DNA of 64,000 bases from Mycolicibacterium confluentis (GTDB lineage Bacteria; Actinomycetota; Actinomycetes; Mycobacteriales; Mycobacteriaceae): assembly GCF_010729895.1 (NCBI RefSeq), contig NZ_AP022612.1, positions 1,736,001-1,800,000 of the forward strand, given 5' to 3'. Of this stretch, positions 1,965-19,435 are shown piece by piece. Position 1 is the first letter of the stretch. Each line of letters starts with the position of its first letter. The notes beneath the pieces were generated by a model. The model searched no databases. It had not been told where the DNA came from and saw nothing but the letters and a program-made list of their open reading frames with translations. Both the position numbers and the translations under genes were made by a program.

Positions 1965-3592
1965 GTCGGCTCCGGGAACATTTCGATGGCGTGCACCGGG
2001 CACTGGTCGGCGCAGACAGCGCAGCCCGTGCACCTGTCGTAGTCGAACCGGTACCGGTGTCCGACACCGAGTTTGATCACCGCGTCCTCCGGGCACGCCC
2101 CCAGGCAACCGTCGCATTCGAAGCAGTTGCCGCAGGACAGACAACGTCGCGCCTCGTAGACCGCCTCATCGCTGGACAACCCGCCGACGACCTCCTCGAA
2201 ACCCCGGACTCTCGTGGCCGGTTCGAGTTCGGGCTGCCGACGTTGTGCGGTGTCACCGAAATACCAGGGGTTCAGCGCGGTGAAGGTGGCGGTCGGGTGT
2301 TTGGGGGGCCGCTCGGACGCCGCCCCGCGCAGCCAGGCGTCGATGTGGCGGGCCGCCTTCTTACCGTGCCCGACACCGACGGTGACCGTGCGCTCCCCGG
2401 GCACCATGTCACCGCCAGCGAAAACCCCCGGACAGCCGGTCATCAGCGAATCCGAGACCCTTACGTTGCCGTCGGCGTCGACTTCCACTCCCGGCAGGGT
2501 GCGCATGAACGCCGATTCGGTCTCCTGTCCGAGCGCCATGATGAGAGTGTCCGCGGCCAGCGACTCGAAGAGTCCGGTGGGTTGGGGACGCCCGTCCGCA
2601 TCGAGTTCCATGACCTCCACCTGCAGCTCGGGTCCGTCGAACGCGGTGACCGTGCGCAGCCAGTTGATCCGCACACCCTCGCGCTCGGCGTCCTCGGCCT
2701 CCTCGGCATGGGCGGGCATCTGATCGCGGGTGCGGCGGTAGACGATGACCGCGTCCTCGGCGCCCAGGCGGCGGGCCACGCGGGCCGCATCCATGGCGGT
2801 GTTGCCGCCGCCGTAGACGGCGACGCGCCGCCCGATCGCCGGCTTCTCGCCGGAGGCGACGCTGCGCAGGAACGACACCGCGTCCACCATCGTGCTGGCG
2901 TCGCGGGCCGGGATGTCGACCCGCTTCGCCAGGTGCGCGCCGACCGCGACGAACACCGCGTCGAAGTCGCCGTCGTCCCGCTCGGCCGCGAGGTCGTGCA
3001 CTCGATGACCGATTGTCAGCCGCACACCCAGGGCCGCGATCCGGCCGAGTTCGTCATCGAGCACATCCCGGGGGAGTCGGTAGCTGGGGATGCCGTACCG
3101 CATCATTCCACCGGGTATCGCGCCCGCGTCGCGGATCTCGACCTCATGCCCCAGCCGTGCCAGCTGGTAGGCGGCCGACAGGCCGCTGGGTCCGGCCCCG
3201 ACGATCAGCACCCGCTTGCCGGTCCGGGCGGGCGGTGCCTCGAACCTCCACCCGCGCTCCCGCGCGAGGTCGCCGAGAAACCGCTCCACCGAATGGATGG
3301 ACACCGCGGTGTCCAGATATGCCCGATTGCAGACGGTTTCGCACGGGTGATAGCACACCCGACCGTGTATCGCGGCGAAGGGGTTGTCCGCGACGAGCTG
3401 ACGCCACGCGGCTTCGAACCGGCCGGCGGTGGCGTGCGCGAGCCAGGCCTGGATGTTCTCCCCGGCCGGGCAACCGGCATTGCACGGTGGCAGAAGATCG
3501 ACGTAGACGGGTCGGCGCCGCCGGACCGGGCCAGCCCGGGAGCGCCCGTGGGCCAGGTCCGCGAGCGGCGTGAGGTCGTCGAAACCTGTCAC
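1961..3592 (-). CDS. GltD-type NAD(P)-linked flavoprotein with N-terminal Fe-S and C-terminal 2x[4Fe-4S] ferredoxin domains
   Basis: Probable electron-transfer partner of NifJ, moving electrons between reduced ferredoxin and NAD(P)H. Visible in order: an N-terminal Fer4_20-like cysteine domain (CNAGCPAGENIQ and CYHPCETVCNR); an FAD Rossmann motif (VLIVGAGPSGLSAAYQL); an NAD(P)-binding motif (VAVYGGGNTAMDAARVA); a second FAD motif ending in FAGGD; and a C-terminal ferredoxin with two cluster motifs (CLSCGNCFECDGCLGACP and CTGCAVCADQCP). The family is GltD/PreT/NfnB-like, but no glutamate synthase large subunit is present. The chosen GTG start (3592) overlaps the stop of a short upstream ORF as GTGA. 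An in-frame GTG at 3625 would add 11 residues but has no ribosome site at a usable distance. The stop overlaps the nifJ start by four bases. Direction of electron flow cannot be read from sequence. Confidence 0.88.
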
Positions 3593-8562: not shown

Positions 8563-8652
8563 AGCTCTCTTTCCGTGCGGGGTTTCGTGACGAGAGGCAG
8601 AGTATCTCCACATGAAACACTCCGCATCTCGAAACGACACTCGACGGTGTGG

Positions 8653-9304: not shown

Positions 9305-10960
9305 ATGACCATCACGCCGATCGAACCGCCGCGCCTGGCCAACGCCGCCGAACGACGCACCTGGCAGGCGCTCGTCGACCAGCTTGAGCCCAACGACCTC
9401 GTCGTTCCCTCGAAGCGCGTGACCGACCACCTCAAGGATCACGAGGTCGACTTCGTCGTCGGGATCGAGGGTGCCGGCATCATCTGCCTGGAGGTCAAGG
9501 GTGGGGAGGTGTGGCACGACGGGGACGGCTGGCGGCAGATGCGCGGCGGGCGCCAGCACACCATTGAGCCGGTCCGCCAGGCCCGGGAAGCCTGCTACGC
9601 GCTGAGGGATTTCGTCGAGAAGGACCCGCGCTGGACGCAGGGCCGGCTGCGCTGGGATCACGTCGTCGTGCTGCCCAACACCGAGCTGCCCGACGACTTC
9701 GGCCTGCCCGAGTGCCCCCGCTGGAAGATCATCGACCGCAACGATCTGCCGACACTGGTCGACAAGCTGCGTGAGCTCATCGTCAAGCAGGAACTCGACC
9801 GGCCACTGCTGACCCGTGACGGCATCGACCAGCTCGGGACAGCGCTGAGCGGCCGGGGCCTGCCGCAACGCGACGTCGTCGCGCGCGCCCTGGCCAACGA
9901 GGATGCCGCCGATGCGCTCACCGAACATCAGGCCGTCATCCTCAACGCGGCGCGACTGCTCACCCGGATCGAAGTGCGCGGCGGCGCGGGCAGCGGCAAG
10001 ACCTTCCTCGCGATGGAGCAGGCCCGCCGGCTGGCGCAGCGTGGCGAGCGCGTCGCGCTGGTCTGCTACTCGCACGGGCTGGCGTCCTACCTGGAACGCA
10101 TCACCGCGACCTGGCCCCGCCGCCAACAGCCCGCCTACGTCGGAGAGTTCCACGCGCTCGGCGTGCAGTGGGGCGCACCGGAAGGCCCTGATGAGGCGCT
10201 GCGCAACGAGCAGACCGTCCAGTTCTGGGAGCATGATCTGCCCAGCCAGATGGCCGATCTGGCAGCGCAACTCGAGCCCGGACAGCGCTTCGACTCCGTC
10301 GTCGTCGATGAGGCTCAGGACTTCGCCGACGCGTGGTGGGATCCGCTGCTCGGCGCGCTGCGGGATCCCCTCGAGGGTGGGTTGTACGTGTTCAGCGATG
10401 AGGGGCAGCGGGTGTTCAACCGGCACGGCTCACCGCCGGTGCCGCTGGTGCCGCTGATCCTTGACCACAACCTGCGCAACACCCGCCAGATCGCCAACGC
10501 GTTCCAACCGCTCGTCGATCACCCGATGCGTTTCCTGGGTGGCGAGGGGCCCGCGGTGACGTTCGTCGAGTGCAGCCGGGACGCAGCGCTGGGTGTCGGC
10601 GACGATCAGGTGGAGTTGTTGTTCGACGAGGGTTGGCGGCCCGAGGACATCGCGCTGCTGACCACCGGCAGCCGCCACCCCGAACAGGCCGAACGCCAAC
10701 GTGACGGCAACAAGGCCTACTGGGACACCTTCTGGGACACCGACCAGGTGTTCTACGGTCACGTGCTGGGATTCAAAGGGCTCGAACGGCGCTGCGTGGT
10801 GCTGGTGGTCAACGAGCAGAACCGATTCGACCGCTCCCGGGAACGGCTCTACGTCGGATTGTCCCGTGCCCGTGACCAACTCGTGGTCTGCGGCGATCCC
10901 GAGTTCATCCGTGAAGTCGGGGGAGCGGACCTGGCCCGCCGCCTCGGCATCGGGAGCTGA
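9305..10960 (+). CDS. NERD-domain nuclease fused to an SF1 (UvrD-like) DNA helicase
   Basis: 551 aa. The N-terminal NERD domain (about residues 10-160) retains a PD-(D/E)xK-type active site: EVDFVV (D49) and CLEVKGG (E63, K65). The C-terminal part is an SF1 helicase with Walker A GGAGSGKT (226-233), DEAQ box VVVDEAQDF (335-338), motif IV-like LDHNLRNTRQIANAF, motif V HVLGFKGLERR and motif VI YVGLSRARDQL, so nuclease and ATPase both look intact. The start ATG follows GGGGGAG. The longer frame upstream crosses the promoter and the antisense PASTA gene and is rejected. The stop TGA is immediately followed by the ATG of the next gene (TGAATG), so the two genes form a tight pair. A role in phage or plasmid defence, or in DNA repair, is inferred from architecture. 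Confidence 0.9.
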   Translation: MTITPIEPPRLANAAERRTWQALVDQLEPNDLVVPSKRVTDHLKDHEVDFVVGIEGAGIICLEVKGGEVWHDGDGWRQMRGGRQHTIEPVRQAREACYALRDFVEKDPRWTQGRLRWDHVVVLPNTELPDDFGLPECPRWKIIDRNDLPTLVDKLRELIVKQELDRPLLTRDGIDQLGTALSGRGLPQRDVVARALANEDAADALTEHQAVILNAARLLTRIEVRGGAGSGKTFLAMEQARRLAQRGERVALVCYSHGLASYLERITATWPRRQQPAYVGEFHALGVQWGAPEGPDEALRNEQTVQFWEHDLPSQMADLAAQLEPGQRFDSVVVDEAQDFADAWWDPLLGALRDPLEGGLYVFSDEGQRVFNRHGSPPVPLVPLILDHNLRNTRQIANAFQPLVDHPMRFLGGEGPAVTFVECSRDAALGVGDDQVELLFDEGWRPEDIALLTTGSRHPEQAERQRDGNKAYWDTFWDTDQVFYGHVLGFKGLERRCVVLVVNEQNRFDRSRERLYVGLSRARDQLVVCGDPEFIREVGGADLARRLGIGS

Positions 10961-12007
10961 ATGGTGGCCGCGGACGACGGAGGCACGCGCCCCCAGAGGC
11001 AGGCCGATCTGATCTTGGTCACCTGCGTGAAGTCGAAGTTGTCGCGCCCCTCACCGGCCAAGGATCTCTACACGTCATCGCTGTTCAAGAAGCAGCGCGC
11101 CTACGCTGAGCATTGCGGCATGCCGTGGTTCATCCTGTCCGCTGAGCACGGTCTGGTGGATCCTGACGAATGGCTGGCGCCCTACGAGCGCTACCTGCCA
11201 GACATGACGGTGGAGTACCGGGTTGCGTGGGGAGCGTGGGTGGCCGCCCGGCTAGAATTGCTCGCTGGTCCGTTGCGAGGTAAAGCGGTCGAGGTGCACG
11301 CCAGTTCCACGTACCTCAAAGCCGTTCGTCCGCACCTCGAAGACCTCGGCGCACTGGTACTCGATCCACTCCGTGGGCTGCCTATGGGACACCGTCTAGC
11401 GTGGTATCCGACGACGGCCCCCGCGGCCGCGACCGTAGCTGACCCGCACGAGGTCGCAGTGGAGTTCGTGACCGCCCTGCGCGATAGCGACCGTTCGGTG
11501 TCGCCGGCGGAGTTCCTCGCCCGCGGACGAAACGCCGCCGACGAGGCGGGCCTGTACAGCTGGTGGGTGGATGTCGTTGGTGCCGAGCAACTCAGCCGTG
11601 GCCTGGGATTTTCGATCGCGCCGGGGCTGATCTATGCCGGGTTGGCAGGTGCCACCCGCTGGCCCAGCGGCGGGCGGTCGAACAACACGCTATGGCTGCG
11701 CATTACAACCATGCACCTCGGCGGCAACCACGAGTTCTCGACGTTCCGCCGCACTCTCGGCTCGATTCTGGTCAGTGCCACTGGCGTCCGCACCATCGAC
11801 GAGAGCGTGCTGACGGAGTGGATGCACCATCACCTACGCGTGGTAATCGTTCCCTTTCAAGACCGTGACACGTTGGGGCGACTGGAGAAGGATGTACTCG
11901 CCACCCTCGACCCACCGCTGAATCTCCAAGGCGTGGCAGGTACACCGCTGAGGCGCCGGATCAAGGAGCTCCGTCGTGCCGTGACCACGGCGGACGGCTC
12001 GGCCTAG
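10961..12007 (+). CDS. DUF6884-like protein with a C-terminal GIY-YIG-nuclease-like domain
   Basis: 348 aa. Residues 15-85 carry a DUF6884-like block: LVTCVKSKL, AKDLYTSSLFKKQRAYAE, WFILSAEHGLVDPDEWLAPYERYL. Residues 195-340 resemble a divergent GIY-YIG nuclease: GLYSWW (197-202) and GLIYAGLAG (222-230) supply the two strands, then a conserved arginine (RITTMHLGG), a glutamate (RLEKDVLATLDPPLNLQ) and the C-terminal PLRRRIKELRR often seen in this group. It begins directly after the NERD-helicase stop with no gap, implying translational coupling and a shared pathway. Its stop shares the tetramer CTAG with the stop of the convergent secreted-protein gene. Function is unknown; a nuclease or nucleotide-modifying partner of the helicase is the simplest guess. 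Confidence 0.75.
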   Translation: MVAADDGGTRPQRQADLILVTCVKSKLSRPSPAKDLYTSSLFKKQRAYAEHCGMPWFILSAEHGLVDPDEWLAPYERYLPDMTVEYRVAWGAWVAARLELLAGPLRGKAVEVHASSTYLKAVRPHLEDLGALVLDPLRGLPMGHRLAWYPTTAPAAATVADPHEVAVEFVTALRDSDRSVSPAEFLARGRNAADEAGLYSWWVDVVGAEQLSRGLGFSIAPGLIYAGLAGATRWPSGGRSNNTLWLRITTMHLGGNHEFSTFRRTLGSILVSATGVRTIDESVLTEWMHHHLRVVIVPFQDRDTLGRLEKDVLATLDPPLNLQGVAGTPLRRRIKELRRAVTTADGSA

Positions 12008-14556
12008 TCCAGCTGGATGATCGTCACCGTCCCGCCGGCCGGGTTCGTCACTGCCAGTTGTCCATACGACAGGGACGTCACGTGACCGGGCCCGGTGTGG
12101 ATGGTTTCCAGGACTTCCATGCCGTAGTAGTACCCCTGGATCTCGATGATGCTCATGGTGCCGGTCAGATCATCAACGACGAAGGCGCGGCTGCCGTCCT
12201 CGTTGATCGCCAAGCTGCTCACGGACCCGCTCAGTTCGACCTCGCTGGCGTACTCGAGCCCCCCGTAATAGTTGGTGTCGTACTTGATCAGCCGGGTGAC
12301 GCTGTTCTCGGTGACCGTCACGTAGATCGAATCCCCGTGGGTGGCAAGCTTTCCGACTACACCATCACCGAAGTCGACGGTATCGACAACCTCCACACTG
12401 AAGTTCGACTGCGCTGCGTCGCTGCTCGCCGCTCGACCGCCAAGGTTGAAACTGACCATCAGACGTGACATGGCGTGCTTACTCGTCGTGACCACATTGC
12501 CGTTGTTCCCGATGATCTTGACCTCACCGAAGGTCATATCTTCGTCGCCAAAGAGTTCCATGCCACCGACCACCAGCGGCGTCTGCCCGGCGCCGTACAC
12601 GCCCAGTTGGCTGCCGGATGATACGACCAATTGCCCGCTGACAGTCGAGCTGCCATTGACGACCACCATGCTGGTCGGTACCTGGCTCAGCACGATGTCG
12701 GTGGTGTTGATGACTAGGCCTGCACCGCTGATCGTCCCGACGTCGATCGTGAGGTTCGGGTTGACCACCACCACCTCGTTGGACCCTTGGATCGGCTGGT
12801 GCACAACGGTGCCGGGTGCCAGCTCGATCGTCTCAACGGTCAACGTGGTCGGGTTCGGGATGTAGAGGTTGTTGTTCCAGTTCACCACGATCTGACCGCT
12901 CGTGTCGATCACGGTGATGGGTGTGATCGTGATCGGGATGACGGTCGGAGGCAGATGAATCACGGTCGTGTCGACGACAATCCACGACTGCGCGGGGATC
13001 GTCACTTCCACCGACTCCGTAGTGGTGTTCTGGCCGTCATGGGCGGTGAGGGTGAACTCCACCGTCCTCTCCTCCTGTGAGGTGCCTGCCGGCGTCAAGG
13101 TCCACTCCCAGGTGTCGGCGCCGGTTTGGGCCACGGTGACGACACCCTGACCCACGGGGGGTTGGGTGACACTGACGACCACTGGGCCGTCGCCGTCATC
13201 GGTGACGCGGATGGTGCCGACCACGACGCCACTGTTGGAGGTTACGGTCGAGATCCGCTCGATCACAGGTGCTTCGTTGACGGGAGTGGCATCCAGGCTG
13301 ACGGTCGCGACGGTCGCGTGTCCGCCGAAGGGTTTGAAGAATCCCAACAGCCCGTGCAGGTGGAATCCCCTGTCGATCACCGCGACTCGGAACGTGTCTG
13401 GTCCGCCCAGGGTTCCGTCGGCTTGGACGGTTGCGGTGTAGGTGAAGGTGCCGTCGGGGTGCAGTTCGACGGTTCCGTTGGCGGGTTGGGTGATCACCCG
13501 GTATTCGAGTCGGTCGCCGTCCTTGTCTTGCCCGACGACCTGCCCGGTGACGACACCGGTCGCCGACGGCTCCTCCAGCGTGACCGTGACGGTGGGTGTG
13601 GAGTTGAAGAAGAAACTGTTGACTCGGCGCAACGCCACCCAGGCGAGTTCGACCAGTTTGGTCACCGGCGAGACCGGTGCCCCCGGCGCGGCGCTGGGGG
13701 CCAGGCCAACCAACGCCAGCAGGCCGCCGACGATGCGAGCCGGCACCGCGATGAGCGCACCGATCGGCGACAGCGAGGGGCGGCTTGTCACGGTGATCGG
13801 ATCGGGGGCGACCGGAATCTGGGCCGCTGTCAGCGGTTCCGCCGAAAGGACGGTCGGTGCGACGGTGTTCACCGTCAGGGTTGAGAACCGCTCGGCCAGC
13901 GTCCGAGTCGTGATGCCTGGATCGGTTCGTGTCACTCGGATGAGCTCGGCGCCTTGTGCCGTCAGGCTCGGCGACGTGACGATCGATCGGACAGCAGAGT
14001 CATCGATCTCAATCACTCTGCCAGGTGCAGAATCCGGACCGGAAGTGTCGATGAGCGCATCCGCGGGCCTAGAGGTGGGAACCTCGAGTTCGGGATCGGG
14101 CGTCGAGACCTCGGGCGACGGGGGATTCGCGCCACCGGCGTCACCGACCGGAGTCGTTGTGTCCGAGCGGGTGTCAGCGGCAGCCTGAGTGGGTTGCGCA
14201 TCGACGGACACGGTCGCGCCGGTGCGCGCCTGGCGGAGGTCGTCCCGAAGTTTGAGTCTCCGCGGTGACAGTTCCCGAGGTGAAGGTCGTGTCGACTCGG
14301 TCGACTCCGCGGTGTCGGCATCGCGAGTGCGGATGCGGCTCTTGACGCGTCGCGTGGGTTCGTCGGCCTGCGTCGCGCGTGTCGGAGTTGATGATTCGGT
14401 GTCCGATGGCCGTGAGGATGCCGTCGGACCCGGCGATCCGGTATCGGTGGAGTCAGCGTCGGCGTGCGCCACGCCCTGTCCGCTTGACACCGCGATGCCC
14501 AGTCCGACAGCCAGCGTCAGACCGCCCAACCGCGATGCGTTCTTTGCACCTTCCAT
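12004..14556 (-). CDS. Large secreted protein with cadherin/VCBS-like repeats and a propeller-like C-terminus
   Basis: 850 aa from ATG 14556 (GGAG ribosome site). It has a Sec signal peptide (residues 1-33, ending GQGVAHADADS), then a Ser/Thr/Arg-rich low-complexity stretch to about residue 270. A mycobacterial linker (RRVNSFFFNSTPTV) leads into tandem Ig-like modules; QPANGTVELHPDGTFTYTA is typical of VCBS/cadherin-like domains, with a second module around VNEAPVIERISTV. A Thr/Val/Ile-rich beta region follows. The last ~150 residues contain repeated short units (KLATHGDSIYVT, SSLAINEDGSRAFVVDD) like a beta-propeller. Function is unknown, probably cell-envelope associated. Longer N-terminal starts at 14676 are disfavoured because they would bury the signal peptide. 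Confidence 0.85.
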   Translation of the reverse strand: MEGAKNASRLGGLTLAVGLGIAVSSGQGVAHADADSTDTGSPGPTASSRPSDTESSTPTRATQADEPTRRVKSRIRTRDADTAESTESTRPSPRELSPRRLKLRDDLRQARTGATVSVDAQPTQAAADTRSDTTTPVGDAGGANPPSPEVSTPDPELEVPTSRPADALIDTSGPDSAPGRVIEIDDSAVRSIVTSPSLTAQGAELIRVTRTDPGITTRTLAERFSTLTVNTVAPTVLSAEPLTAAQIPVAPDPITVTSRPSLSPIGALIAVPARIVGGLLALVGLAPSAAPGAPVSPVTKLVELAWVALRRVNSFFFNSTPTVTVTLEEPSATGVVTGQVVGQDKDGDRLEYRVITQPANGTVELHPDGTFTYTATVQADGTLGGPDTFRVAVIDRGFHLHGLLGFFKPFGGHATVATVSLDATPVNEAPVIERISTVTSNSGVVVGTIRVTDDGDGPVVVSVTQPPVGQGVVTVAQTGADTWEWTLTPAGTSQEERTVEFTLTAHDGQNTTTESVEVTIPAQSWIVVDTTVIHLPPTVIPITITPITVIDTSGQIVVNWNNNLYIPNPTTLTVETIELAPGTVVHQPIQGSNEVVVVNPNLTIDVGTISGAGLVINTTDIVLSQVPTSMVVVNGSSTVSGQLVVSSGSQLGVYGAGQTPLVVGGMELFGDEDMTFGEVKIIGNNGNVVTTSKHAMSRLMVSFNLGGRAASSDAAQSNFSVEVVDTVDFGDGVVGKLATHGDSIYVTVTENSVTRLIKYDTNYYGGLEYASEVELSGSVSSLAINEDGSRAFVVDDLTGTMSIIEIQGYYYGMEVLETIHTGPGHVTSLSYGQLAVTNPAGGTVTIIQLD

Positions 14557-15083
14557 GAGCACATCTCCAGGTGGAGTAGGGGGACACTCCTGCGTCCGAA
14601 GGTCGACCCGGCCTTCGATCTGGAATATGTCAGATTCGTCAATATCTGACATGAGTTTGCTGGAACTGGTCCGCAAGTATGCCTGGGGAGTTACTGTGAA
14701 TCGTCTGTGCGAGGTGAACCAATAGTTTGGGTATCTAATTCTCGACGACGGAGGTGCACGTCAGGACGGTCGATGGTCGACGACTCTATGCATCCTGGGG
14801 CGGATTCGCCGCCGATGGGGTGGCGTGAAGTCACGGCCGGGAGGCCGTTGGAGCGTCGGCGGACACCCGGCGCGGCGTTAGCCCGATAAGGGGGGATCGA
14901 GGCAGGCGGCACCGCGCACGAGGCCTTGACCTGTTCCCTCGTGTGGTGGGTCGGCCCCGGTTCGCACGGACTGCCCCGCGATGGCCGTATCGGAGTTGTC
15001 TGGTCCCAAAACCTTTGTGGGCACAGGAATTGTGTCGGACCCTGACCATAAAATGGTGTTGTTCAATCACACCGGGGGGTTGC
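14557..15083. other. Intergenic stretch of about 530 bases without a convincing gene
   Basis: Upstream region of the secreted-protein gene (minus) and of the small plus-strand gene. Short frames exist on both strands, but none has a convincing start, ribosome site or protein-like composition. The stretch contains the dyad at 14627-14652, and base composition is locally less GC-rich around 14690-14760. Nothing else was recognised. Confidence 0.5.
14627..14652. promoter_or_regulatory. Perfect 9-bp inverted repeat, candidate operator
   Basis: ATGTCAGAT and ATCTGACAT are perfect reverse complements separated by eight bases. The dyad lies about 70 bases upstream of the secreted-protein start. The geometry suits a dimeric repressor or activator site; without a poly-U tract it is unlikely to be a terminator. 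Confidence 0.4.
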
Positions 15084-16304: not shown

Positions 16305-18788
16305 CTAGGGCGCAGGCGGGGGCGGTGCATCCGGTGCGGGCGGTGGCTCCGGGGGCGGTGGCGGCGGCAGGGCCGGCAGCGTGATCGGCGGCAGTCCAGG
16401 GATATTGATGACATTCGGTGGCGGCACCGGCGGCCCCGCATCCGGAGGCGGCGGCGGCGCGTCCGGCGGAGGCACATACACGGGCGCCGGCGCCACACCG
16501 CTGCTGGTGTAGATCGTGACGATCGACCCCGGGATGGTCTTGCCCTTCGGCGTGGTCCCCACCACCGAACCCTTGGACTCGTAGCTGTTGATCGGCGTGG
16601 GCTCATCCGCGACGCGGAACCCGGCCTCCTCCAGCTTCTTTCGCGCCGCATCCAGCTTCAGCCCGGTCACCGACGGCACCTCACCGCCCGGCCCACCCTC
16701 GACGTAGCGCGGGTCGGTGGGCGGCATCTTGATCTCGCCGAAGTCCTCGGCGATCGGCTTCATCGCCAGATACCACGTCTGGGCGGGCCCCTGACCGCCG
16801 AACAGGGTGCCCGAATCGCACTTTCGCAGCGGGTACGAGCACAGCCCTGAGGGCGCGGAGGAGTCGTCGAAGATGTAGTTGGCCGCCGCGTACTGGTTGG
16901 TGAACCCCAGGAACGCCGAGGATCGGTGCGACTCGGTGGTGCCGGTCTTACCCGACATCGGCAGGTTCCAGCCGACCGACCCCGCCGCAGCGGTCGCTGT
17001 GCCGATGGTGTGGTCCTTGCCCAGCGCGTTGGCCAGGGTGTTGGCCAACCCTTCGGGCACGGCCTGCTCGCACTTCGGCGTCTCCAACGTGACTTCGCGG
17101 CCGTTGCGGTCGAAAACCTTGTCGATCGGCGTCGGTGGGCACCACACGCCACCGGAGGCCAGCGTCGCCGCCACATTAGACAACTCGAGCGCGTTGAGCT
17201 CCAGCGGACCCAGCGTGAAGGAGCCGAGGTTCTGCTTCTTCGCGTAGTCGGCGATGCTGTCGTTGCTGTCGGGTTCGTAGGAGCGCGCGGTGCCCGGTTC
17301 GGCGTAGGACCGCAGCCCCAACCGCACCGCCATGTCCACCGCACGCGGCACCCCGACCTGCGCGATCAGATTCGCGAACGCCGTGTTGGGGGACTTCGCC
17401 AGCGCGTCGGTGACGTTCATCTTGCCGGCGAACCCAGCGCCCGCGTTCCTCACACACCACGTCGCAGGCGGGCAGCCGTCGCTGTCGCTGCTGCCCAGCC
17501 CCTTGCCGCGGAACGTCTGCGGCACGTCGAGTTGGGTGTTGATGCCCATGCCCATCTCCAGGGCAGCCGCGGTGGTGAAGATCTTGAAGATCGACCCGGC
17601 GCCGTCGCCGACGAGGGAGAACGGCTGCGGCTGCACGGTCTGGGAGGCGTCGAGGTCGAGGCCGAAGGTGCGGTTGTCGCCCATCGCGACGACGCGGTGC
17701 GCGTCCTTGCCGGGCGTGATGACACTCATGACGCTCGCGACGCCTTCCGCGGTCGGGTCGGCGACGGTGTCGATCGCCTCCTTCACACTGTCCTGCACCT
17801 TGGGGTCGAGCGTGGTGCGGATCAGGTAGCCGTTGCGGGCGACGTCCTCCTTGGACAGCCCGGCGCGTGCCAGGTACTGCAGCGCGTACTCGCAGAAAAA
17901 CGCACGATCACCCGCGGCGATGCAGCCCTGCGGCAGCGGCTTGGCCCTGGGCAGCACCCCCAACGGCTGCTCCTTGGCAGCACGCAGCTCGTCGGCCTTC
18001 TCCGGAAGGTTCTCGATCAACGTGTCCAGGACGACGTTGCGTCGCGCCAGGGCGCCCTCGGGGTTGGTGTACGGATCGAGCGCACTGGTCGACTGCACGA
18101 TGCCGGCCAGCAGCGCCGACTGCTGCCAGTTCAGGTCGGCGGCGTTGATCGCGAAGTACGTCTTGGCCGCGTCCTGCACGCCGAACGCGCCGTTGCCGAA
18201 CGCCACCAGGTTCAGGTAGCGCGTCAGGATCTCGGGTTTGGACAACTCCTTGTCCAGCGTCAGGGCCATCCGGATCTCGCGCAGCTTGCGTGCCGGGCTG
18301 ACCTCGATGGCCGCACGCCGTTCACCGTCGTTCTGCGCGGTGACCAGCAGGTTGTAGTTCTTGATGTACTGCTGCTCGATGGTCGAGCCGCCGCGGGTCT
18401 CGCGATTGCCCTTCAGGTAGCCGAACAGGCCGGTCAACGTCCCCTGCACGTCGACGCCGCTGTGTTCGGTGAACCGTTTGTCCTCGATGGACACGATCGC
18501 CAGCTTCATGGTGTCGGCGATCCGGTCGCCGGGCACCACCCAGCGGCGCTGCGCGTACAGCCATGCGATGGGCTTGCCGGAGGCGTCGACCATGGTTGTG
18601 ACGATCGGCGCATCACCCTTGAGCAGCTGCGTCGCGTCATCCTCGGTGGTGTCGGAGACCCGCATGATGAGGACACCGGCCGCGCCCGCCGCGGGAAACA
18701 TCAACGCTGCCGTGAGCACCCCGGCCAGCACGCAGTACAAGGCTAGTCTAGCTAACCTCACTCGTGTGCTCGGCGGCTCTTCGGCCAT
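16305..18788 (-). CDS. Class A penicillin-binding protein with PASTA domain (PonA2-family; possibly the PonA3 paralogue)
   Basis: Bifunctional peptidoglycan glycosyltransferase/transpeptidase, 827 aa, anchored by one N-terminal helix (LALYCVLAGVLTAALMFPAAG). The glycosyltransferase domain contains SIEDKRF (catalytic Glu about residue 102) and RGGSTIEQQ. The transpeptidase domain has the SxxK motif in GAGSIFKIF, the SxN motif SPNT and SGKTGTTE. A single PASTA domain (EVPSVTGLKLDAARKKLEEAGF) follows, then a long Pro/Ala tail. The layout and many blocks match mycobacterial PonA2, but divergence suggests the second PonA2-like copy known as PonA3 in M. smegmatis. ATG 18788 has a GAGGGG ribosome site; upstream in-frame starts are disfavoured. 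Confidence 0.92.
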   Translation of the reverse strand: MAEEPPSTRVRLARLALYCVLAGVLTAALMFPAAGAAGVLIMRVSDTTEDDATQLLKGDAPIVTTMVDASGKPIAWLYAQRRWVVPGDRIADTMKLAIVSIEDKRFTEHSGVDVQGTLTGLFGYLKGNRETRGGSTIEQQYIKNYNLLVTAQNDGERRAAIEVSPARKLREIRMALTLDKELSKPEILTRYLNLVAFGNGAFGVQDAAKTYFAINAADLNWQQSALLAGIVQSTSALDPYTNPEGALARRNVVLDTLIENLPEKADELRAAKEQPLGVLPRAKPLPQGCIAAGDRAFFCEYALQYLARAGLSKEDVARNGYLIRTTLDPKVQDSVKEAIDTVADPTAEGVASVMSVITPGKDAHRVVAMGDNRTFGLDLDASQTVQPQPFSLVGDGAGSIFKIFTTAAALEMGMGINTQLDVPQTFRGKGLGSSDSDGCPPATWCVRNAGAGFAGKMNVTDALAKSPNTAFANLIAQVGVPRAVDMAVRLGLRSYAEPGTARSYEPDSNDSIADYAKKQNLGSFTLGPLELNALELSNVAATLASGGVWCPPTPIDKVFDRNGREVTLETPKCEQAVPEGLANTLANALGKDHTIGTATAAAGSVGWNLPMSGKTGTTESHRSSAFLGFTNQYAAANYIFDDSSAPSGLCSYPLRKCDSGTLFGGQGPAQTWYLAMKPIAEDFGEIKMPPTDPRYVEGGPGGEVPSVTGLKLDAARKKLEEAGFRVADEPTPINSYESKGSVVGTTPKGKTIPGSIVTIYTSSGVAPAPVYVPPPDAPPPPPDAGPPVPPPNVINIPGLPPITLPALPPPPPPEPPPAPDAPPPPAP

Positions 18789-18920
18789 GCCCCTCAGCCT
18801 AGGGCCCTCGGATACGCCTTCGGCAGGGATCCCCCGTGATACGTTCGGGGCGTTGATATCTCGGGCGCGTGTGCGGTGGCCGACCTGCACAGACGCGGAT
18901 TCGCAACAGGATCAGTCGGC

Positions 18921-19388
18921 TTATTGTCGCGCCGTGCGCGGCGAATGCCTGCGAGCCTCCTCCGCTGCCCGTCGCTCCCGCACGAGCGCCGCAACGCGCT
19001 CAGCGGCCAGGAGCGGGTCTTCGTGCTCCCACACCCGCACCACGGTCCAGCCCGCGGCGTCCATGAGCTCATCGGTGTTTCGGTCCCGCGCCCGGTTCCC
19101 CTCGACCTTGTTGCGCCAGAACTCGGAGTTTGCCCGGGGGGCGGTGTAGTGCTCGGGGCAGCCGTGCCAGAAGCAGCCGTCGACGTAGACCGCGATGCGC
19201 AGTGGCCGGAAGACGATGTCGGCGGTCCGGCGCAGACCCGGGATCGGCCGAGCCGCCACCCGGAAGCGCAGACCGCTGGCGTGCAGCGCCGAGCGCAGCG
19301 CCTTCTCCGGGCCGGTGTCACGGCTGCGGTTGGCGCGCATGGTCTCGCGCGCGATGTGCGACGAGGCCCACGACTCGCCCGTGCTCAT
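18921..19388 (-). CDS. vsr: Very short patch repair endonuclease (Vsr)
   Basis: Mismatch endonuclease that nicks at T:G mismatches arising from deamination of 5-methylcytosine. About 155 aa from ATG 19388 (GTG three codons upstream also possible). Diagnostic blocks: an N-terminal RSRDTGPEKALRSALH, then LRRTADIVFRPLRIAVYVDGCFWHGCPEH with the catalytic Asp and zinc-binding His/Cys residues, EFWRNKVEGNRARDRNT, and GWTVVRVWEHED. No C5-cytosine methyltransferase or other restriction-modification gene is adjacent, which is unusual because vsr usually accompanies one. Confidence 0.92.
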   Translation of the reverse strand: MSTGESWASSHIARETMRANRSRDTGPEKALRSALHASGLRFRVAARPIPGLRRTADIVFRPLRIAVYVDGCFWHGCPEHYTAPRANSEFWRNKVEGNRARDRNTDELMDAAGWTVVRVWEHEDPLLAAERVAALVRERRAAEEARRHSPRTARQ

Positions 19389-19435
19389 AGAAGTCACGGT
19401 ATCGGTCGGGTGCTCGCAGCGGCTCCGTGCTTCCG

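Follow-up and report, generated by a model that had tools for sequence, protein, structure and literature searches.

A 64,000-nucleotide stretch of the Mycolicibacterium confluentis genome (contig NZ_AP022612.1, positions 1,736,001 to 1,800,000), referred to here as the window, holds two abutting genes on its forward strand, the first encoding a NERD nuclease fused to a superfamily 1 (SF1) helicase (NERD-helicase; 9305..10960, 551 aa) and the second a DUF6884 domain fused to a GIY-YIG nuclease (DUF6884-GIY; 10961..12007, 348 aa). The second gene product is proposed, with about even confidence, to be an endonuclease guided by modified or damaged bases that works with the NERD-helicase and most likely serves type IV-like restriction. 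The proposal draws on domains, motif residues, a predicted fold and gene clusters that recur in other lineages, such a pair being unusual inside the genus.

In the second protein, Pfam recognizes DUF6884 (PF21818, 1e-43) at residues 18-149 (11012..11407, forward strand) and GIY_YIG_2 (5e-14) at residues 197-339 (11549..11977, forward strand), which bears out the make-up given in the initial annotation, a DUF6884-like N-terminus and a GIY-YIG-like C-terminus. The predicted fold of the DUF6884 domain is YaaA-like; Foldseek by itself returned nothing at E<=0.001, and PDB sequence searches were uninformative. This domain contains CxxxK (C22, K26) and LSAxxG (59-64) motifs, and the nuclease contains Y199, Y225, R247, H252, E309 and N321; C22, K26 and S60, together with all six nuclease residues, are identical in 22/22 aligned sequences and, as read from the motifs, are probably catalytic. 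Tyr, Tyr, Arg and Glu, the catalytic set of GIY-YIG enzymes, are all present, so that the protein has both the fold and the expected catalytic residues of such a nuclease. Among 7997 scored candidates, 1278 relatives were found at E<=1e-3, and the best 120 of these 1278 all possess both Pfam domains, a shared architecture indicating that the fusion is more than chance. A single place in the organism's own genome matches the protein at E<=1e-3. Many DUF6884-GIY proteins have DUF7662 as an N-terminal domain, and one has DUF7669 (L140). Of the PADLOC profiles, PDC-M57A matches at 4.4e-27 and DpdC weakly at 0.0061. In the open-access literature searched, subscription papers lying outside it, neither the DUF6884-GIY fusion nor its pairing with a NERD-helicase was found described, and no paper naming DUF7662 turned up.

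The first gene likewise agrees with its annotation as an intact NERD nuclease fused to an SF1 helicase. The NERD domain (residues 13-124, 9341..9676, forward strand; PF08378, 6e-8) keeps D49, E63 and K65 in 21/21 aligned relatives covering them, the window counted, and the helicase core (residues 222-528, 9968..10888, forward strand) has an unbroken Walker A motif GGAGSGKT at 226 and VVDEAQD at 333 (DEAQ at 335), along with Pfam matches to UvrD_C_2 (1.8e-7) and to AAA_19, the latter under its curated cut-off. A GGGGGAG stands upstream of the ATG at 9305. The mechanical open reading frame (ORF) begins at 8612, its extra 231 N-terminal residues showing no Pfam family of their own (E<=1); helicase relatives listed for the query begun at 9305 are mostly 549-555 aa. 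At 10958..10963 (forward strand) the helicase stop is followed at once by the start of the second gene, TGAATG, with the zero spacing described earlier.

The recurrence of the pair is clearest in the distant family f16, taken here as Geodermatophilaceae (Blastococcus, Geodermatophilus). DUF6884-GIY was found at E<=1e-60 in 10/397 order-wide, 8/394 class-wide and 10/112 f16 genomes, and the NERD-helicase in 57/394 class-wide genomes at E<=1e-90 and in 47/112 f16 genomes. A NERD-helicase lies upstream, on the same strand, of 9/10 f16 DUF6884-GIY genes. In seven of these (G228, G368, G474, G501, G876, G889, G893) DUF6884-GIY could begin between -4 and +10 nt relative to the stop codon of the helicase. 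In G878 a PDDEXK_13 gene sits between the two, and in G879 they are separated by an OGG-like and a PDDEXK_13 gene; the four genes of this last cluster (L189, 3261-7753) overlap or are closely spaced, in the order NERD-helicase, OGG-like glycosylase, PDDEXK_13, DUF6884-GIY. The tenth gene (G442) has no NERD-helicase in the ~0.7 kb to its contig end, and none was matched in that genome. In a Nocardioides metagenome-assembled genome (MAG; L012), a NERD-helicase is followed by one ORF and then by DUF6884-GIY; residues 8-92 of this middle ORF match a PADLOC type IV profile, and ORFs adjoining DUF6884-GIY in L148 and L150 are related to it, mainly outside its type IV-matching part.

The window is placed with its genus in the NERD-helicase tree, in which the four f16 pairs sampled make up a separate clade (SH-aLRT, the approximate likelihood ratio test, 100) and L012 groups with other class members. 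The DUF6884-GIY tree, of 30 sequences of which four look broken (L012, L142 and L151 in two frames, L150 with one stop), places the window with its genus (100/98), the f16 sequences with L143 (100/99) and L012 with the unpaired L011 (100/100), and paired sequences are split from the other labelled ones in 0% of 200 bootstrap trees. Either the pair was assembled repeatedly, or it is ancient and has often been split, and both histories lead us to favour a functional link; because both trees roughly follow host kinship, repeated assembly is not proven.

In f16 the NERD-helicase also has other neighbours. The set surveyed (n=33) comprised 30 of the 47 genomes by best score plus three DUF6884-GIY-carrying loci, which biases the partner tally upwards. 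An OGG-like glycosylase gene (PF21790; 6e-61 and 1.5e-59) lies downstream in G879 and G414, PDDEXK_13 (PF20796) relatives lie downstream on the same strand in 5/33 loci, and three loci (L176, 3116-3409; L181 and L186, both 3120-3365) have a stand-alone DUF7662 gene (PF24698) whose start is offset by -4 or +4 nt from the stop codon of the helicase; many of the 33 are without any partner sought. A domain that is fused in some proteins and encoded next door in other genomes commonly points to joint function. The idea that the N-terminal region in f16 is McrA-like was dropped, the best blastp E being 0.03.

The contexts of DUF6884-GIY were counted over 35 loci: five of the genus (with L003), ten of f16, three further ones of the order, six of the class, eight on genome contigs and three on plasmids; L013 and L014, with no full-length GIY domain matched, were dropped, and L002 and L004 were merged with G123 and G024, seemingly the same genomes. 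A NERD-helicase is linked in 11/35. In relatives the gene overlaps or adjoins type IV-like restriction genes. In G104 and L003 it shares an ATGA overlap with a PLD-helicase-DUF3427 gene, presumably SauUSI-like, and in G459 it adjoins a gene matching Orf5 and mREase_IV that we take to be GmrSD-like. In L004 it comes after clustered genes that include one for an LmuB-like ATPase; in G461 it lies, in two frames, within an island with ZacC-, DrmD- and TmtA-like genes; and it is carried by Rhodococcus plasmids, in one case next to a type I restriction system. The overlapping PLD-helicase-DUF3427 gene was seen in two mycobacteria (L003, 6885-10981, and L078). A convergent HNH gene recurs after DUF6884-GIY in L002, L003 and L078 and after a NERD-helicase in L099 (68% identity), the L003 copy alone having been scanned against Pfam. 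Three genus loci (L018-L020) encode GIY-YIG relatives of ~40% identity in which no DUF6884 domain was matched. Phages and haloarchaeal viruses (L120-L135) carry DUF6884-like proteins without a GIY-YIG match, for which a counter-defence or base-modification role is possible. A phage origin of the second gene was rejected: 21 phage records match the protein, none over 80% of the query, and the 16 viral-contig loci match up to residue 161 at most, with no GIY domain and no NERD-helicase.

As a mechanism, the YaaA-like DUF6884 domain would bind DNA and probably flip and inspect a base, or alternatively a partner glycosylase would find the non-standard base; the Eco29kI-like GIY-YIG domain would nick near the inspected base, and the NERD-helicase would probably load at the nick or end, unwind the DNA and degrade it. 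The helicase is the commoner component; DUF6884-GIY, the OGG-like glycosylase, the PDDEXK_13 nuclease and DUF7662 would be interchangeable partners, each perhaps setting the base to which the helicase responds. Type IV-like restriction, aimed at foreign DNA that carries modified bases, would be the likeliest use. Both the nuclease and the YaaA-like domain are present, DUF6884 would act as the modified-base reader that is a type IV trait, and no methyltransferase adjoins the pair at E<=1e-5 among the 10 neighbours scanned (1961-22687) or in the ORF of a nearby Vsr endonuclease, smaller ORFs being outside the scan.

Known systems offer partial parallels. R.Eco29kI is a type II restriction enzyme that acts at a fixed sequence; compared with it, the second protein has an added N-terminal DUF6884 domain. 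As in the modification-dependent winged-helix GIY-YIG enzymes Ahi29725I and Apa233I (PMC11037411), a putative base-sensing domain and a GIY-YIG nuclease are joined in one protein and methyltransferase genes are rare nearby; unlike their winged helix, the presumed reader here is a YaaA-like DUF6884 domain, and the protein is paired in some lineages with a NERD-helicase. DpdC, which PMC11888242 names as a DUF6884 member, makes a modified base in Dpd islands according to PMC12839542, where it is put in DUF328. The likeness of the second protein to the DUF6884, YaaA and DpdC families lies in its DUF6884 and PDC-M57A matches, whereas here the domain is joined to a nuclease and the match to DpdC itself is weak; a Dpd (7-deazaguanine) system is not indicated, no dpdA/dpdB-type modification genes occurring among 11 neighbours scanned. 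The likeness to Gabija that the initial annotation saw lies in a UvrD-like helicase and a second nuclease, but that assignment fell: the helicase carries NERD and matches GajB at only 6e-6, and its partner is DUF6884-GIY, with no profile match to GajA, the OLD-family ATPase-TOPRIM protein. Membership in Nhi, a single-protein nuclease-helicase system, is doubtful, the helicase matching that profile weakly (1.6e-4, 18.5 bits, best stretch only residues 205-253).

The architecture of the first gene is that of the PADLOC entries RTasNERD-Hel (3.8e-35) and C3a187 'NERD+UvrD' (1.6e-23), and these matches favour a different account, in which the NERD-helicase makes up the entire defence by itself, as an Nhi-like protein or one of the reverse-transcriptase-accessory type, and the gene after it only shares its promoter and encodes a separate enzyme of type IV-like character. 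The partners sought were absent from 33/35 genus NERD-helicase loci (30 best loci plus five more), a convergent HNH gene being downstream of one, and the G024 copy sits beside genes matching BrxHI and DruE. We consider this account doubtful, given the tight f16 coupling of the helicase to DUF6884-GIY, OGG, PDDEXK_13 and DUF7662. A defence reverse transcriptase system with a NERD-helicase accessory was rejected, since no reverse transcriptase family was found among 11 neighbours scanned, smaller ORFs lying outside the scan. It is rather unlikely, in our estimate, that the two genes are chance neighbours, a mobile stand-alone DUF6884-GIY having landed behind a mobile NERD-helicase without joint work in the window. 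In the genus each gene usually stands without the other beside it, three plasmids carry DUF6884-GIY without a NERD-helicase, and the window's flanking genes occur at 1/18 NERD-helicase loci in other genus genomes for which longer flanks were read (G133), several of the 18 having neighbours in common with one another; however, the TGAATG abutment is exact, and f16 shows the same order and strand, as does the Nocardioides MAG with an ORF interposed.

Full-length DUF6884-GIY is present in 4/148 genus genomes (any match in 21, the other 17 partial) and the NERD-helicase in 46/148, 43 of them near full length; the idea that the helicase is core in the genus, taken from the best 120 matches, was thus wrong. 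Of the remaining three genomes, two (G002, G055) have only fragments, and in G145 the gene is in two pieces on separate contigs, one at a contig end; the fragments of G002 and G055, together with an extra partial copy in each of G047 and G054, suggest gene decay and turnover. All four DUF6884-GIY genomes also have a NERD-helicase, but the genes are adjacent only in the window; in G104 they share a contig at a distance of ~18.6 kb, and in G123 and G024 they are on different contigs. The two-gene module of the initial annotation is supported in f16 and not in the genus, where a fixed module was rejected on patchy distribution and on adjacency at 1/35 NERD-helicase loci (downstream side, 1.5 kb for most).

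That count weighs against joint action of the pair in restriction, as do several further results. The two genes are adjacent in 1/5 genus DUF6884-GIY loci; 24/35 DUF6884-GIY loci are without a NERD-helicase in the stretch covered (for some, including six class members, 1.5 kb each side); and DUF6884-GIY lies within 1.5 kb at 0/20 NERD-helicase loci, which were drawn from the 47 class genomes with a match that do not belong to the genus. The G876 helicase lies in two frames, may be broken and is not among the matches listed in the f16 search for NERD-helicases, and DUF6884-GIY of L012, the third pairing, spans two frames; this frameshift and the G442 negative leave our weighting of the readings unaltered. 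In the window itself, the 10 neighbours scanned are metabolic, membrane, secreted, regulatory or cell-wall genes, among them a cadherin-like secreted-looking protein ending against the pair (12004-14676) and a PASTA penicillin-binding protein (16305-18890), with no methyltransferase, transposase or defence family and no defence island seen. The accessory insertion suggested earlier is in keeping with the patchiness of both genes, but the flanking genes scanned are ordinary; no empty site is demonstrable, a glutamine-synthetase-like flank gene being found in 1/31 relatives, the own genome, by which a conserved locus was also rejected. A Vsr mismatch endonuclease gene (18921-19397, reverse strand; PF03852, 3e-18) lies ~7 kb from the pair, and a second Vsr is near an f16 NERD-helicase (L185).

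Antiphage defence, as first suggested, is plausible from the type IV-like neighbours of relatives and from plasmid carriage but unproven, with DNA repair a live rival. The genes could form a repair module, in which DUF6884-GIY would be a lesion-directed nuclease that cuts by UvrC-like chemistry, while the OGG-like enzyme would act as the glycosylase of base excision and the NERD-helicase would serve as the excision helicase. The OGG-like neighbours suit repair equally well, and f16 species are reputedly radiation-resistant. YfjM, a DUF6884 protein, was identified as an interactor of abasic and RNA lesions (PMC11701544). We nevertheless regard repair as less likely and prefer restriction, because DUF6884-GIY is very patchy in the genus, order, class and f16, occurs on plasmids and has type IV-like neighbours.

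A bolder form of the restriction reading, which we advance only tentatively and think rather unlikely, is base-excision restriction from exchangeable parts: the OGG-like glycosylase, DUF6884-GIY and DUF7662 would mark non-self bases by an abasic site or nick, and the shared NERD-helicase would destroy the DNA. It would mean that repair-type chemistry serves as immunity, with one helicase for many readers. A DNA glycosylase, Brig1, acts in immunity (PMC11078745), and the proposal made here, if true, would extend this recent evidence and would join base-excision chemistry and a nuclease-helicase in one cassette. DUF6884 would then gain a testable role as the base reader of a nuclease, and the f16 operons of G879, G893 and G228 would provide defined sets of partner enzymes for assays on modified-base phages.
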